In this document: one piece after another, positions 17,726 to 26,171 of the stretch | How the letters are laid out: every line of letters starts with the position of its first letter | Position numbering within the stretch: the stretch's first letter is position 1 | Assembly: GCA_016786495.1 (NCBI GenBank) | Contig: JAEUUJ010000033.1 | Span: forward strand, 1 to 64,000 | Reading direction: 5' to 3' | Length of the DNA: 64,000 bases | Origin: Cyclobacteriaceae bacterium | Lineage (GTDB): Bacteria > Bacteroidota > Bacteroidia > Cytophagales > Cyclobacteriaceae | Notes under the pieces: generated by a model | What the model was told of the DNA's origin: nothing | Databases searched by the model: none | What the model saw: only the letters and a program-made list of their open reading frames with translations | Program-made: the position numbers and the translations under genes

Positions 17726-20707
17726 ATGAAAAACACACTACGCTATTTAGTTATTGTCTTCTTCTTTACTGGTTTTTCTTCTGCTTTTGCTCAAGTGGGT
17801 ATTGGAACCGATGCGCCAAATGCAAAAGCTGTTCTTGAACTAAAATCACCAAACAACAATCAGGGTTTCCTGGTACCTCGCCTGACAACCGCACAGCGAA
17901 CTGATGCGGCATTTACGGGATCACTGACAACAGCTGAGACGGGGTTATTGGTGTTCGACACCGACACAAAGAAATTTTACTACTGGAGCGGTAGCGCCTG
18001 GACGGTAATTGAAGACAGCGTTGGCACCGACAATCAAACACTATCATTCACTTCGCCTAACTTGAGTATTTCGGGTGGCAATAGCGTGAATCTTTCAACC
18101 ATCAATACAGATGGTCAAACTCTTTCATACGTTGCGGCTTCCGGCCAGTTGAGCATAACCGGGGGAAACGCAGTCACCATTACCGGTACCCTTCCGGGAG
18201 GTGCCGCGGGCGGAGACTTAACGGGTACGTACCCAAATCCTACCCTTGCCGCGAACGCGGTTACAACTACAGAGATTACAGATGGAACAATTACCTCTGG
18301 TGATATTGCTGATGGTACCATTGCCACCGCTGACCTTGCCAACGGTTCTGTAACGGCTGCCAAACTTGCGAACACCGCAGTTACCGCAGGGTCGTATGGA
18401 ACGGCAACTCAGGTTCCACAATTAACCGTTGATGCACAGGGACGAATTACCGGTGTTACACTGGTTTCGATCACAGGTATTCCTCCCGGTGGAGCAGCCG
18501 GTGGGGATTTAACCGGGACCTACCCTAATCCAACAATTGCTAATAATGCCATTACTTCAGCAAAAATTACAGATGGAACAATAGCCACCGCCGATTTGGC
18601 AGATGGTTCGGTAACAGCGTTAAAGTTGGCGAACACCGCGGTGACATCCGGCACGTACGGAACGGCCACACAGGTTCCACAACTTACCGTGGATGCACAG
18701 GGACGGATTACCGGAGTGGTGAATACAACCATCACGGGCGTAGCTCCTGCCGGAACAGCCGGTGGTGACTTAACGGGTACGTATCCGAATCCTACAGTTG
18801 CAAACAACACAATCACGTCAGCGAAGGTTGTTGATGGAACAATTGCTACGGCAGATTTGGCCGATGGCTCAGTAACAGCGTTAAAGTTGGCGAACACCGC
18901 GGTGACATCCGGCACGTACGGAACGGCGACACAGGTACCACAACTTACCGTGGATGCCCAGGGACGGATTACCGGAGTGGTGAATACAACCATCACGGGC
19001 GTAGCTCCTGCCGGAACGGCTGGTGGCGATTTAACGGGTACGTATCCGAATCCTACAGTTGCAAACAATACAATAACATCAGCGAAGGTTGTTGATGGGA
19101 CAATTGCTACGGCAGATTTGGCCGATGGTTCAGTAACAGCTTTAAAGTTGGCGAACACCGCGGTGACATCCGGCACGTACGGAACGGCAACTCAAGTACC
19201 ACAACTTACGGTGGATGCGCAGGGACGAATTACAGGTGTAGTAAACACAACCATATCGGGGGTTGCTCCGGCCGGAACGGCTGGTGGCGATTTAACCGGC
19301 ACATATCCCAATCCAACAGTCGCAACGGGATCAATTTCTACCGGCAAACTTGCTGATGGCTCAGTTACCGATGTGAAAATTGCCGCAGTAACTCCTTCAA
19401 AAATTACAGCTGGTGGCGCTGCTTCCGGTCAGGTATTGAAATGGAACGGAACAAACTGGACTCCGCAAGCGGATAATGCCGGAGCAGATGCGCAAACATT
19501 GTCGTTCACGTCACCCAACTTAACCATCGCAGGCGGAAACTCAGTAAACCTTTCTGCAATCAACACCGATGCACAAACACTCTCATACACACCTGCTTCG
19601 GGCCTTCTTGCGATCAGTGGAGGAAATAACGTTACCATTACAGGAACCGCTCCGGGCGGTGCCGCAGGCGGAAACCTGACCGGGACCTATCCCAATCCAA
19701 CAATCGCGACCACAGCCGGTACCAATGTTGTAACCGCCATCAATGACGTATCAACAACCGGAACCATTAATACCGCGCGCTTGAATAGTGGCGTTGTACT
19801 TGATACCGAATCCCCGGCAGCGGGAGACATAACCGGAAGTTATTCTGCCGGACTCCAGTTGGGTGCGAACTCGGTTACCGCAACAGAAATTGCCACAGGT
19901 GCAGTGGGAACTACCGAGATAGCAGACGGATCGGTAACCGCTTTAAAGCTCGCATCTACCGGAGTTACAGCCAATACGTACGGATCCGCCACAACGGTTC
20001 CTCAGATTACCGTTGATGCACAAGGAAGAATAACAGCGGCAACCAATACAACGGTTTCAGGAGTTGCTCCTGGTGGAACGGCAGGCGGAGATCTTAACGG
20101 AACGTATCCGAACCCAACAGTTGATGCGTTGCAGGGCCGGGCAGTTTCTGCTACTGCGCCAGCGCTAAACCAGGTGTTAAAATGGAACGGTACGGCCTGG
20201 GCTCCTGGTACCGACGACTCCGGCAGCGGAGGAATCGGTGGAGGAGGTGCTGCAACGCAGGTTGGTTATTGGAGCAGCGCATCTACGATTGTGGGAAAAG
20301 CGGGCTTTGTGTTTGACGAAAAAGATAACCGTCTCGGAATTAACACTTCGGCCCCATTGGGTAATTTACACGTGATAGGTTCACAATTCGTTAATCAGGT
20401 TCAGGTGCTGGACAACTATGTCATTAAAGACACGGATTATTCTATCATCGTTCCGAACACCGCCAAGCCTGTGACGATCGATTTGCCAGTTATTGCACCG
20501 GATAATGTAGGCCGCGTTTTAATTTTCAGAACCGTTAACTCTGCAACCGTTACGCTGGTTGCCGCAACGGGGCCAAAAGATGAGATTGATACCTTCGGGG
20601 GCAGTTATCCGATGGAGATTAATGGAGAACAATACCGGGCACTGATCCTAATTGCCACGCAGTTTGCCGGCCAGGATCGCTGGATGCTTGTAAGCGGAAC
20701 AAAATAA
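17726..20707 (+). CDS. Giant secreted repeat (fibre-like) protein B
   Basis: A 993-residue paralogue of protein A, 65 bp downstream. The signal peptide is residues 1-22 ('GFSSAFAQ'). Residues 23-115 repeat the A-type N-terminal domain almost word for word ('NQGFLVPRLTTAQRTDAAF'). Repeat markers 'GTYPNPT' fall at residues 167, 264, 351, 438, 525, 653 and 792, with 'QTLSF/QTLSY' beta motifs inserted in two places. The C-terminus differs from A: from about 835, 'GYWSSASTIVGKAGFVFDEKDNRLGINTSAPLG' is a tail-fibre-like phrase, and residues 890-993 form a compact beta domain ending 'DRWMLVSGTK'. No T9SS sorting domain is seen. The shared N-terminus suggests a common assembly or anchoring site for A and B. 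Confidence 0.85.
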   Translation: MKNTLRYLVIVFFFTGFSSAFAQVGIGTDAPNAKAVLELKSPNNNQGFLVPRLTTAQRTDAAFTGSLTTAETGLLVFDTDTKKFYYWSGSAWTVIEDSVGTDNQTLSFTSPNLSISGGNSVNLSTINTDGQTLSYVAASGQLSITGGNAVTITGTLPGGAAGGDLTGTYPNPTLAANAVTTTEITDGTITSGDIADGTIATADLANGSVTAAKLANTAVTAGSYGTATQVPQLTVDAQGRITGVTLVSITGIPPGGAAGGDLTGTYPNPTIANNAITSAKITDGTIATADLADGSVTALKLANTAVTSGTYGTATQVPQLTVDAQGRITGVVNTTITGVAPAGTAGGDLTGTYPNPTVANNTITSAKVVDGTIATADLADGSVTALKLANTAVTSGTYGTATQVPQLTVDAQGRITGVVNTTITGVAPAGTAGGDLTGTYPNPTVANNTITSAKVVDGTIATADLADGSVTALKLANTAVTSGTYGTATQVPQLTVDAQGRITGVVNTTISGVAPAGTAGGDLTGTYPNPTVATGSISTGKLADGSVTDVKIAAVTPSKITAGGAASGQVLKWNGTNWTPQADNAGADAQTLSFTSPNLTIAGGNSVNLSAINTDAQTLSYTPASGLLAISGGNNVTITGTAPGGAAGGNLTGTYPNPTIATTAGTNVVTAINDVSTTGTINTARLNSGVVLDTESPAAGDITGSYSAGLQLGANSVTATEIATGAVGTTEIADGSVTALKLASTGVTANTYGSATTVPQITVDAQGRITAATNTTVSGVAPGGTAGGDLNGTYPNPTVDALQGRAVSATAPALNQVLKWNGTAWAPGTDDSGSGGIGGGGAATQVGYWSSASTIVGKAGFVFDEKDNRLGINTSAPLGNLHVIGSQFVNQVQVLDNYVIKDTDYSIIVPNTAKPVTIDLPVIAPDNVGRVLIFRTVNSATVTLVAATGPKDEIDTFGGSYPMEINGEQYRALILIATQFAGQDRWMLVSGTK
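18515..19297 (+). repeat. Three near-identical 261-bp tandem units in protein B
   Basis: 'GTYPNPT' codons start at 18515, 18776, 19037 and 19298, exactly 261 bp (87 codons) apart. Adjacent units differ by only a handful of bases over 261 bp (compare 18610-18860 with 18871-19121), much closer than the copies in protein A. This points to recent unequal crossing over or gene conversion. Confidence 0.9.
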
Positions 20708-21926: not shown

Positions 21927-23225
21927 TTAGATGCTTCTGTTGGTGTCAAACTTCTCGAGGTAGTCGGCAACACGTCTTACTAACATTCCACCGAGTGAGC
22001 CATCGACCACGCGATGGTCGTACGAGTGGGAGAGGAACATTTTGTGGCGGATCGCAATCGCGTCTCCGTAAGGAGTTTCAATCACGGCAGGTTTTTTCTG
22101 AACAGCCCCCAGCGCGATAATACCCACTTGCGGTTGCATGATAATGGGTGTTCCCATAACGTTACCAAATGAACCTACGTTTGAAACGGTGAAGGTTCCG
22201 CCTGAAAGCTCGTCGGGCTTAAGTTTGTTTTCGCGCGCACGCTTCGCGAGATCATTTACCACCTTGGCCAGTCCTGTGAGGTTAAACTGATCAGCATTTT
22301 TAATGACTGGAACGATCAGGTTGCCGGTTGGCAGCGCCACGGCCATCCCGATGTTGATATCTTTTTTCTTGATGATCCGGTCGCCATCCACCTGAATGTT
22401 GATCATCGGATAGTCTTTGATCGCCTGGATAATCGCTTCGATGAAGATTGGAGTAAACGTCAGCGCATCGCCTTCGCGTTTCTGGAACTCGTTCTTCATT
22501 TTGTTCCTCCAGAATACAATGTTGGTAACGTCTGCTTCCACGAAAGAGGTAACGTGTGGAGAAATGCGCTTGGAGTCCACCATGCGCTCAGCAATCATCT
22601 TGCGCATGCGATCCATTTCGATGATCTCGTCACCCGCGCTAACGGAGGCCGGAACAAGCGGTGCATTGGATACTGCTTTGACAGGTGTTGCCTGGATGGT
22701 TTTACCAAGTTGGCGATTCTGCACGTAGCCGAGAATATCTTTTTTGGTCACGCGGCCTTCCAGACCCGACCCTGCAATGGATTCAAGCTCTACCACAGAG
22801 ATATTCTCTTCTTTCGCGATGTTCTTCACCAGCGGTGAATAAAACCGGTTGGAAGATTTATAATCAGCCGCAGCATGCGTAGCTCCGTTCGAATTGCTAA
22901 CAGGCTCAGCCGCTTCTTTGGCAGCTTTCTTCGATTCCTTTTTTGGTTCGGTTGTTACTGGTGCTGCACCGTTTGTGGCTTCGGCATCGGTTGTAATAAT
23001 CGCAATCGGTTTCCCCACTTTTACCACTTCACCTTCTTTTGCCAGAATTTCTTTGAGCACCCCGGCATGGGTGGAGGGCACTTCGGTATCAACCTTGTCG
23101 GTGGCAACCTCCAGCACGGATTCATCCTGTTCAATTTTGTCGCCAGGCTTCTTTAACCATGAAAGGATAGTCGCTTCCATGATACTTTCGCCCATTTTAG
23201 GCATGATTAGTTCGACTGATGCCAT
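21927..23225 (-). CDS. Dihydrolipoamide acyltransferase (E2) of a 2-oxo acid dehydrogenase complex
   Basis: Core component of a 2-oxo acid dehydrogenase complex, moving acyl groups from E1 to CoA through a lipoyl arm. The order is: lipoyl domain (residues 1-78, lipoylated Lys in 'VATDKVDTEV'), Ala/Lys-rich linker (85-120), peripheral subunit-binding domain (about 128-165, 'FYSPLVKNIAKEENI' to 'GRVTKKDIL'), a second linker, then the catalytic domain (about 200-432) with 'HSYDHRVVDGSLGG' holding the active-site His and Asp. A single lipoyl domain and this catalytic domain are closest to branched-chain or generic Bacteroidota E2 enzymes. No E1 or E3 gene is near, so the substrate is undecided. 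Confidence 0.93.
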   Translation of the reverse strand: MASVELIMPKMGESIMEATILSWLKKPGDKIEQDESVLEVATDKVDTEVPSTHAGVLKEILAKEGEVVKVGKPIAIITTDAEATNGAAPVTTEPKKESKKAAKEAAEPVSNSNGATHAAADYKSSNRFYSPLVKNIAKEENISVVELESIAGSGLEGRVTKKDILGYVQNRQLGKTIQATPVKAVSNAPLVPASVSAGDEIIEMDRMRKMIAERMVDSKRISPHVTSFVEADVTNIVFWRNKMKNEFQKREGDALTFTPIFIEAIIQAIKDYPMINIQVDGDRIIKKKDINIGMAVALPTGNLIVPVIKNADQFNLTGLAKVVNDLAKRARENKLKPDELSGGTFTVSNVGSFGNVMGTPIIMQPQVGIIALGAVQKKPAVIETPYGDAIAIRHKMFLSHSYDHRVVDGSLGGMLVRRVADYLEKFDTNRSI

Positions 23226-23357
23226 AGAGTTCTAACGTTTTCGGAGCGTAAAATTAGCCTTTTTTGTGGGAACGCCATCCGGGGCCGATCGGGTCAGGAG
23301 TAAAAAAACCGCCTGTGCCGATGATGGCTCATAACAATCGGTAATTGCGCAAATGGG

Positions 23358-26171
23358 CTAGGATTGCATCCGGTATTCGGAAGGCGATACACCAAATTCG
23401 CGTTTAAACGTTTTGGAGAAATACGACTGGTCTTCAAAGCCAACGCTGTAACCAATTTGAGAAACCGAATCGGCATGGTTTCGCAACAGGTTTGCGGCAC
23501 GTTTCAAACGCACGTTGCGGATGAATTCGCTGGGTGCGAAACCTGTGATCGTTTTCATTTTGCGGTGGAGGTTAACGCGGCTCATAGCCATTTCTTCGGC
23601 CATTCTTTCGACATTAAAATCCCGGTCCGCAATATTTTTTTCGACCACTTCCAGTGCCTTTCGAAGCAGTCGCTGATCCGCTGATTCTACTGACTCAGCA
23701 TCTGTTCCGGTGATGGCCTGTTTATACTTTTCACTTAGTTCTTCGTTCTGGCTCGTCAATAAATCAATTTGAATGTTCAGGAACTCGCGGTTTTTACGAT
23801 CCCGGTATTGTTGAATAGAATACGTCAATACAAAAGCAAGCATCACAAGTACGAATCCGGCTATCAAAATGTTTGTCCAGAGCGTTTGAATTCGTTTGTC
23901 TTTTTCCAGCAGCTGAATTGCCTGAGCTTGCTTTTCCCGCTCGGTGCGAGCCTCCATCTCGGCCATTTTCATCGTCTGCTCCTGGGTATAGAGCGTGTCG
24001 CGGATTTCCTGAAGGCGTTGGGCGTATGTATAGGCACCCTGGTAGTTCTTTCTCGATTCTTCCATGATTCGCAAGGCGTCATAAACATTCTCTTTGCGTT
24101 TCTTATCTCCGATCTGATGAGCAAGCTTGAGCGCTGCCTGGTAATGCTCAAGAGCCGATGTATAATTACCCTTCGCAACATCAATGGAACCGAAGTTCTG
24201 ATCAATCAGCGCGATCATATTGTTGTTATTGAATTTTTTCGCCAGTCGTTGCGCTTTTGAAAGATGCTCAAGGGCTACAGGATAATTTTCAAGCGTGCTA
24301 TTTATCGCTCCCACGTTAAGAAAGGGTAAAATCATTTCGGCCGAATCACCGATCGCCAGGCGCATATTCAGTGCTTTGACGTAATAGTCGCGCGCTGAAG
24401 TGAAGTCTTTCATCAATTCATGGGTGTAGCCCAGGTTGTTCAGGTCGCGTGCAATGCCTGTTTTAACGTCCATCCTGGTATCCAGCTTGAGCGCTTTTTT
24501 GTGATACTCGATGGCCTTTTCATAGTTGTTTGCCTGTGAATAGTTTAAGCCAATCATCCCGTACGACCAGCTTACGCCCTTCAAATTGCCAAGCTTTCGA
24601 TACACCTCCTGGGCCAACAAGGCGTAGTCCATGGCACTTGCATAATCCGTTTGGCTCCAATAATAACTTGCAATTTCGCGATACGAGGCTGCGACTCCTT
24701 TCGGGAAGTTCAGGCTTTCAGACAGCTTGAGTGCTTCCATCGCGTAGTCAAAGTTTTTATGTGGATCTGTTGTCCATGATTTATGCGTGATCGCATTTAG
24801 CAGATTTACCCGCACGGTGTCTTGCTCCGGGTGCTTTTGTAACTCGCGAATGAGGCTGTCACGCTTGCTAACCTGGCCGTAGCTTAGAAATGAAAGCAGC
24901 ATGAGAATCATTAACAGCGTATTCGATTTTGGTAAACTCTGCCGGATCAGGTTCAATACGGCAATGGATGCCGTGCGAATGTTAATCATGCGGTCTTTCG
25001 AAAGCTGCAGTTTTTTTGTTACCGTTTGATGCTTGTCGGAGTACGCAATCCACACCGTCCCCACAGGCTTGTCGGGGGTTGCACCGCCCGGGCCGGCAAT
25101 ACCACTGGTTGCCACGCCGATGTCGGTGTTGAATTTAGCGCGAACGATGTTCGCCATTTCGATGATGGTGGGTTCGCTTACGGCACCATATTTTTCGAGT
25201 GTTTCTGGCTTCACACCGAGTTGCCGCATTTTGATTTGATAGTCGTAGGGGACAATGCTGCCCAGGAAGTAGCCCGAACTACCGGGAATGCTGGTGATGA
25301 GGTGCGACAAATATCCGCCTGTACAGCTCTCTGCAATGGACAGGGTGAGTTTTTGATCCAACAGTTTCTTGCCGATCACTGATTCGATGGGCTCATCGCC
25401 ATATCCAAAAATAAACTGACCGATACGGCCTTCAAGTGTTTTTGTTAAGCCATTGATTTCCTGCTCGAGTGCTTCGTGCGAATGGCTAAAACCGGTGATC
25501 CGCAATTTTACTTCACCGAGACTTGGTAAATACGCCAGGCCGATGTGTTCAGGCAATGCGTTTTCCCAGTCGGCAATTTTCTCGGCAAGAATTGATTCGC
25601 CCACACCGATGGTGCGAACCACTTTGTGATAAATAATGGGTGTCTTGAATGTGGCCTTTAATCTCGGCAGCACAAAATCGGTCATCATCATTTTCATTTC
25701 GTGCGGTACACCGGGCATCGACATGAAAACTTTATTGCCTTTCGGGAACCACATTCCGGGAGCTGTGCCGATCTGATTGGTAATTTTCTCGCAGGCGGTG
25801 GGAAGCATGGCCTGCAGCCGGTTTACTTCGGTAAGTTCACGGCCACGACTTTTAAAAAACTCCGTTACTTCGGCCAATGCCTCGTCATTTAGAACCATTC
25901 CGCAGTTAAAATATTTGGCGAGGCACGGTTTGGTCAGGTCATCGTTGGTGGGTCCGAGGCCACCGGTTATCAGAACAACATCGGCACGCTTTTCCGCTTC
26001 CGCGAAAGCGGTAAGAATCTCGTCTTCCTGGTCACCCACGGTAGTTTTACGGATAACCTTGATGCCGATTTTATCAAGCTCCACACTCATCCACTGCGAG
26101 TTGGTGTCCACAATTTGACCGTACAGAATTTCATCACCAATCGTCAGCAGTTCAGCCAGTATCTTTTTCAT
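23358..26171 (-). CDS. CinA-TPR-AraC fusion: competence/damage-inducible protein joined to a transmembrane TPR regulator
   Basis: One uninterrupted frame of 937 residues from ATG 26171 (an earlier in-frame start at 26189 adds only six residues). Residues 1-170 are the MoaB/MoeA-like domain of CinA ('LLTIGDEILYGQIVDTNS', 'ITGGLGPTNDDLT'). Residues about 255-415 are the PncC nicotinamide-mononucleotide amidase domain ('SIAESCTGGYLSHLI', 'ATSGIAGPGGATPDKPVGTVW'). CinA normally ends here. The frame then enters a hydrophobic stretch (about 418-431, ending 'SYGQ'), tetratricopeptide repeats (about 444-750), a coiled coil, a membrane helix (about 765-786) and an AraC-type helix-turn-helix (about 834-937, 'VGFEDQSYFSKTFKREFGVSPSEYR'). 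Two membrane passes would leave both CinA and AraC in the cytoplasm and the TPRs in the periplasm. Alternatively, the second half starts separately at the in-frame TTG 24954-24956, which gives a good signal peptide. Confidence 0.82.
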   Translation of the reverse strand: MKKILAELLTIGDEILYGQIVDTNSQWMSVELDKIGIKVIRKTTVGDQEDEILTAFAEAEKRADVVLITGGLGPTNDDLTKPCLAKYFNCGMVLNDEALAEVTEFFKSRGRELTEVNRLQAMLPTACEKITNQIGTAPGMWFPKGNKVFMSMPGVPHEMKMMMTDFVLPRLKATFKTPIIYHKVVRTIGVGESILAEKIADWENALPEHIGLAYLPSLGEVKLRITGFSHSHEALEQEINGLTKTLEGRIGQFIFGYGDEPIESVIGKKLLDQKLTLSIAESCTGGYLSHLITSIPGSSGYFLGSIVPYDYQIKMRQLGVKPETLEKYGAVSEPTIIEMANIVRAKFNTDIGVATSGIAGPGGATPDKPVGTVWIAYSDKHQTVTKKLQLSKDRMINIRTASIAVLNLIRQSLPKSNTLLMILMLLSFLSYGQVSKRDSLIRELQKHPEQDTVRVNLLNAITHKSWTTDPHKNFDYAMEALKLSESLNFPKGVAASYREIASYYWSQTDYASAMDYALLAQEVYRKLGNLKGVSWSYGMIGLNYSQANNYEKAIEYHKKALKLDTRMDVKTGIARDLNNLGYTHELMKDFTSARDYYVKALNMRLAIGDSAEMILPFLNVGAINSTLENYPVALEHLSKAQRLAKKFNNNNMIALIDQNFGSIDVAKGNYTSALEHYQAALKLAHQIGDKKRKENVYDALRIMEESRKNYQGAYTYAQRLQEIRDTLYTQEQTMKMAEMEARTEREKQAQAIQLLEKDKRIQTLWTNILIAGFVLVMLAFVLTYSIQQYRDRKNREFLNIQIDLLTSQNEELSEKYKQAITGTDAESVESADQRLLRKALEVVEKNIADRDFNVERMAEEMAMSRVNLHRKMKTITGFAPSEFIRNVRLKRAANLLRNHADSVSQIGYSVGFEDQSYFSKTFKREFGVSPSEYRMQS

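Follow-up and report, generated by a model that had tools for sequence, protein, structure and literature searches.

The window, by which we mean the whole 64,000-nucleotide stretch of DNA analysed here (contig JAEUUJ010000033.1 of a Cyclobacteriaceae bacterium, genome G000), carries on its minus strand one open frame of 937 codons, which runs from an ATG at 26171 to position 23361 and closes with a stop codon at 23358-23360. Pfam recognises in it, all above the cut-offs, MoCF_biosynth (residues 8-172), CinA_KH (182-256), CinA (260-412), several TPRs and HTH_18 (857-935). The preliminary description had read the frame as CinA followed by a hydrophobic stretch, TPRs, a membrane helix and an AraC domain, and the translation and the order of the Pfam domains bear this out. 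The frame is a genuine, narrow and conserved in-frame fusion of a complete CinA with a TPR/membrane/AraC regulator. It is a new architecture built of known families, and its domain order was not met elsewhere in these searches.

The CinA part covers residues 1-415 without a terminal stop codon (24927..26171, minus strand, as are all features of the locus) and comprises a COG1058 ADP-ribose pyrophosphatase domain, a KH domain and a PncC/CinA NMN deamidase domain. Inside it, the in-frame TTG that had been pointed out earlier is present as codon 406 (24954..24956) and is a candidate internal start for the regulator. The joint (residues 416-432, 24876..24926) is signal-peptide-like by motif and hydropathy, with a candidate signal peptidase I site before Q433. 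The TPR array and the helix after it (residues 433-762, 23886..24875), assigned from Pfam TPR_12 and other TPR models, AlphaFold and Foldseek, are predicted to be periplasmic. A membrane helix follows at residues about 763-785 (23817..23885), where the Kyte-Doolittle (KD) windows of 19 residues above 1.6 start at 761-770, and then a putatively cytoplasmic part with the AraC-type HTH (23361..23816). A spacer (23226..23357) leads to the next gene (21927..23225), which we take, from its sequence, to encode a 2-oxoacid dehydrogenase E2-like protein. Elsewhere in the window, 17726-20707 encodes a protein of 993 aa in which a 261-bp unit is repeated in tandem 3.9 times (18306-19325) and which in part matches phage tail-fibre families. 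Similar proteins of 918 aa and 898 aa are found at the same place in two related genomes (L038 and L039), and the repeat number may vary.

The CinA half matches NCBIfam NF001813 over the length of the model (residues 6-414, 419.9 bits against a cut-off of 379), and the COG1058, KH and PncC domains are all present, in order and at full length. Its end had been placed near residue 415, which is correct, as the stop codon of the unfused cinA in a relative (G008, the same as L039) is codon 416. In the alignment with the Thermus thermophilus CinA, residues D78, E158, Y309, K314, S356 and R394 of the fusion correspond to D76, E156, Y296, K301, T340 and R377, and the T. thermophilus residues D76, E156, G284, S286, Y296, K301, A343, G344 and R377 are identical in the fusion. 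T340 is replaced by S356 and T314 by A330; according to PMC4246079, T340 is Ser in some CinA sequences and T314 is often Ala. Judged from this alignment, the CinA active site is kept in the fusion. A profile search of both genomes that carry the fusion (G000 and G011) found it to be the only PF02464 match in each. G008 has, besides its unfused cinA, a second, single-domain PncC-type match (G008:C7:377137-377556, a 166-aa open frame), of which there is none in G000 or G011. Codon 416 of the fusion is not a stop, and the chain does not finish behind the PncC domain in the manner of a soluble CinA; since no stop separates the two parts, ribosomes that start at cinA read on into the regulator, and free CinA of the ordinary kind is not to be expected.

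The regulator half ends in an AraC-type HTH (HTH_18, 84.2 bits) and shows the order signal peptide, TPRs, membrane helix and AraC domain, where the signal peptide is judged by motif and hydropathy only. Residues 493-564 are the best TPR stretch in Pfam. The AlphaFold model of this half, made with 10 sequences, has a mean pLDDT of 81.3 and a pTM of 0.56, with the TPR part mostly at pLDDT 80-95. It consists of a TPR superhelix, a long helix (model residues 325-414, which are protein residues 730-819 and span the membrane segment) and the AraC domain, and Foldseek matches it to the TPRs of LGN, Rap and NprR. The full-length model has a mean pLDDT of 70.5 and a pTM of 0.41; its CinA blocks are mostly above 80 and its TPR blocks mostly at 67-87, and pLDDT is below 50 at 416-435 and at nearly all of 782-937, among others. 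This model fits a flexible or membrane-bound joint and says nothing on cleavage. A promoter of the Bacteroidetes type was not found as a pair within the gene, where a lone -7-like box is located at ORF position 759.

Directly after K415 of CinA, residues 416-432 and the following Q433 read SNTLLMILMLLSFLSYG-Q and SNTLLVILMLLSFLTYG-Q in the two fused genes. The joints thus end in SYGQ and TYGQ, and combine a short hydrophobic core with small residues at -3 (S or T) and -1 (G). The core is 12 residues long and no 19-residue window in it reaches a KD value of 1.6, which makes this first stretch resemble the core of a signal peptide rather than a full membrane helix; the second helix exceeds 1.6 in ten such windows. 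Of the two membrane passes proposed in the preliminary description, the second is borne out, and the first looks more like a signal-peptide core. The topology proposed with them is supported in that CinA and AraC can, by their predicted placement, both be cytoplasmic. All eight free-standing homologues that were read begin with their own signal-peptide-like stretch at the place of the joint, and in five of them this stretch closes with [FY][SG]Q. The cleavage site is judged from this motif, which the other three homologues lack, and from homology, and its retention at the joint is a weak test because only two fused genomes were found. With these limits, the joint resembles a signal peptide that can still be cleaved. 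Two free-standing relatives (L044 and L045) start with MKSH, which makes it plausible that an ancestral start of the M-K-S type was joined at the last Lys codon of cinA.

The second fused genome is a Cyclobacteriaceae metagenome-assembled genome (MAG; G011, the same as L038), whose contig JAIBBC010000004.1 holds the same 937-codon frame with 93% amino acid identity, no indel and no internal stop. The same missing stop codon had been proposed as something to look for in relatives, and it was thus found. At the DNA level the two genes are 0.839 identical in the CinA part and 0.849 in the regulator, so 15-16% of the nucleotides differ. The dS is 1.195 for CinA and 0.898 for the regulator, which is about one change per synonymous site, and the corresponding dN/dS ratios of 0.026 and 0.056 indicate strong purifying selection on both halves. 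The low ratios argue that both parts are in use, and these dS values together with the identical position of the joint argue that the shared joint is not recent.

A stop codon between CinA and the regulator in a close relative had been named as the result that would speak against a fusion. No such case was detected; the next relative, G008, has a stop but no regulator there. Its cinA ends with K415 and TAA, followed after 121 bp by the E2 gene. The 124-bp stretch formed by this stop and gap aligns locally to the regulator with a score of 24, while 200 shuffles gave an average of 22.9 and a maximum of 34. A loss of the regulator in G008 that left a remnant was rejected on this basis, and a traceless loss is compatible with the score. 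The final part of the spacer, about 40 bp before E2 (window 23226-23270), is nearly identical in G000, G011 and G008, from which it follows that the regulator lies between cinA and the leader of E2. These 40 bp may represent a promoter or leader. For six genes of the locus, namely cinA and five of its neighbours, the fused genomes are 0.846 identical to each other in DNA, and 0.794 and 0.803 identical to G008. Going by these values, a single gain before G000 and G011 split would be the simplest history, and an earlier gain with subsequent loss in G008 is compatible with them too. The grouping of G000 with G011 rests on the DNA identity of these six genes, cinA among them, as the CinA protein tree does not resolve G000, G011 and G008 (support for the fused pair 59/25). 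In the tree of the regulators the fused pair groups with G304, but by long branches which were flagged by the program. One alignment that combined CinA-only with regulator-only proteins came out misaligned and was left unused; two others took its place.

The fusion is narrowly distributed. An orthologue of the regulator, in fused form, is present in 2 of the 17 genus genomes, two of which are only 81% and 87% complete, and the other 15 have none at E-values up to 1e-40. Out of the 295 family genomes searched, the same two contain the fused regulator. At an E-value of 1e-70, eight of the 295 match at ten places, which are the two fusions and eight free-standing genes. The latter are 35-38% identical to the fused regulator, and two of them are paralogues within the fused genomes. 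A second, free-standing TPR-AraC regulator of 35-36% identity occurs in five of the 17 genus genomes (L002, L047, L046, L044 and L045), both fused ones included. A search for a closer donor of the regulator in 395 phylum genomes, a sample without G011, returned at an E-value of 1e-85 only the window's own copy. On the CinA side, 124 of 128 genomes in the family sample (again without G011) have a match, and only the one in the window lies in an open frame of more than 500 aa. In the order sample 122 of 138 genomes match, with frames above 500 aa in G000, G414 (621 aa) and G396 (541 aa); the latter two were rejected as fusions of this kind, since their extra length lies upstream and each frame closes 7 codons past the match. 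Some CinA matches are cut by contig ends, so that their C-terminus is not seen. In a Bacteroidetes MAG with a CinA of 81% identity (L040), the match reaches as far as residue 415, after which comes a stop codon.

We regard it as probable, if narrowly so, that the locus is a one-off inherited fusion giving a two-in-one precursor, which would be split by signal peptidase and possibly supplemented by extra regulator made from the internal TTG. A regulator of the free-standing type, with signal peptide, TPR sensor, one membrane helix and AraC DNA-binding domain, would have landed just behind cinA in the ancestor of the two species. Comparison with the relatives shows that the joint lacks both the stop codon of cinA and a start codon belonging to the regulator, and translation from the cinA start gives one chain of 937 residues. 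CinA would fold in the cytoplasm, while the old signal peptide would export the remainder until the TPRs lie outside and AraC inside. Signal peptidase I would most probably still cleave ahead of Q433, and as the joint is signal-like, this enzyme is the natural candidate for releasing CinA. The cut would yield CinA carrying a membrane tail and, in a one-to-one ratio with it, the regulator in its normal mature form, and some regulator may also come from the TTG at 24956. Free CinA could come from this cutting or, less likely, from a frameshift. Against the precursor it can be said that a folded domain of 415 residues ahead of the signal could hinder cleavage.

If the signal sequence were instead kept as an anchor, the product would be one uncut membrane sensor with CinA and AraC on the same side, in which the AraC dimer is set partly by the dimer of CinA or by CinA's ligand state (NMN, ADP-ribose), and the TPRs read something in the periplasm. 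Such a protein is permitted by the topology and in keeping with a frame retained over about one change per synonymous site, with the apparently intact CinA active site and with the lack of any other PF02464 gene found in the genome. The T. thermophilus CinA is a dimer according to PMC4246079. The first hydrophobic stretch is however short and retains the cleavage motif of the family, and no other CinA is fused in this way in the 124 family and 122 order genomes with a match, some of which are cut by contig ends. We consider the uncut sensor unlikely. The same holds, a shade more strongly, for its functional extension, namely an uncut one-chain regulator in which the one NMN deamidase/ADP-ribose pyrophosphatase of this family in the cell supplies, from the cytoplasm, the input to an AraC factor that senses the periplasm. 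The coupling to NAD metabolism that the preliminary description had proposed is possible, but it is not the most likely reading.

The locus could also be two overlapping genes in one frame, where the TTG at 24956 is the main start of the regulator and the cell merely puts up with the long CinA chain. A regulator started there would have a normal signal peptide, with an n-region containing R and K and then the core. The longest identical DNA run between the fused genes measures 41 nt (window 24943-24983, codons 397-409) and includes this TTG. Among the 105 pairs of 15 cinA genes (out of 18 at hand) only the fused pair has no difference at these codons, and two other pairs that are closer overall differ there. 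This stretch was picked post hoc as the longest run, and a run of at least 13 identical codons arises somewhere in cinA in about 10% of simulations; the TTG is moreover found at the same place in 3 of the 13 unfused cinA genes compared (L040, G001 and G006). The start at the TTG that the preliminary description had suggested thus gains some post-hoc support, but because cinA is left without its own stop, starting internally cannot restore CinA in its normal form and is not the whole story. We judge it rather improbable that overlapping genes account for the locus; the identical run may be a hint that the regulator is also made alone, alongside the two-in-one precursor.

A programmed frameshift near codon 415 would release CinA as well, and stops in the +1 frame were seen by eye at the same place in both genomes, a few codons past AAA-TCG; as the site has neither a slippery heptamer nor more than three or four A in a row, we hold this to be very improbable. 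Least credible of all is an error made in sequencing or assembly, or a mutation that arose very recently in a single strain, for although L038 is a MAG and G000 a draft of 90 contigs, the same joint occurs in two assemblies that differ at about 15% of bases, and an error was rejected unless both assemblies err alike.

In both genomes the only CinA-family gene found is tied to a membrane regulator and conserved in this form, and CinA is separate in the relatives examined. If the chain is cut, the locus would be a natural example of a single frame that yields both a soluble enzyme and a regulator of the secreted type, divided at the former signal peptide. An uncut chain would physically connect NAD recycling with transcription in a direct way, and NAD turnover and an outside signal would be read together.

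Among the literature matches listed, neither a CinA-AraC fusion nor such a TPR-AraC arrangement appears in titles or abstract openings. PMC3855486 mentions that CinA domains are occasionally fused to other domains, cases that are set aside there, and according to PMC3680494 the fusion partner of COG1058 is PncC in most bacteria and FAD synthase in plants and mammals. The fusion is like the two-domain CinA/PncC proteins, which combine NMN deamidase and COG1058 ADP-ribose pyrophosphatase (T. thermophilus CinA, 4CT8), over the length of NF001813 and in the active-site residues, but it has no stop, runs on for 522 residues and is predicted to be membrane-bound. With the free-standing TPR-membrane-AraC regulators (G304, G263, G210 and the genus paralogues of 35-36% identity) it shares the domain order and 35-38% identity over most of the length, whereas these begin at a start codon of their own with a signal-peptide-like stretch, and no CinA precedes them in frame. 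The model of the FimS-type TPR sensor kinases (NF053520) matches residues 538-796 with 87.4 bits, below its cut-off of 600, and the output of the fusion is AraC and not a kinase. The likeness to the Rap/NprR proteins in the TPR superhelix, found by Foldseek, is a resemblance of fold only; these proteins are not known to have a membrane part, and they have other partners. For the two-in-one precursor that we favour, a parallel is the cytochrome b/c1 precursor FbcH of Bradyrhizobium, where one frame encodes two proteins with an internal signal peptide between them that is cut by signal peptidase. The FbcH proteins are unrelated to the fusion, and their cleavage has reportedly been shown by experiment.
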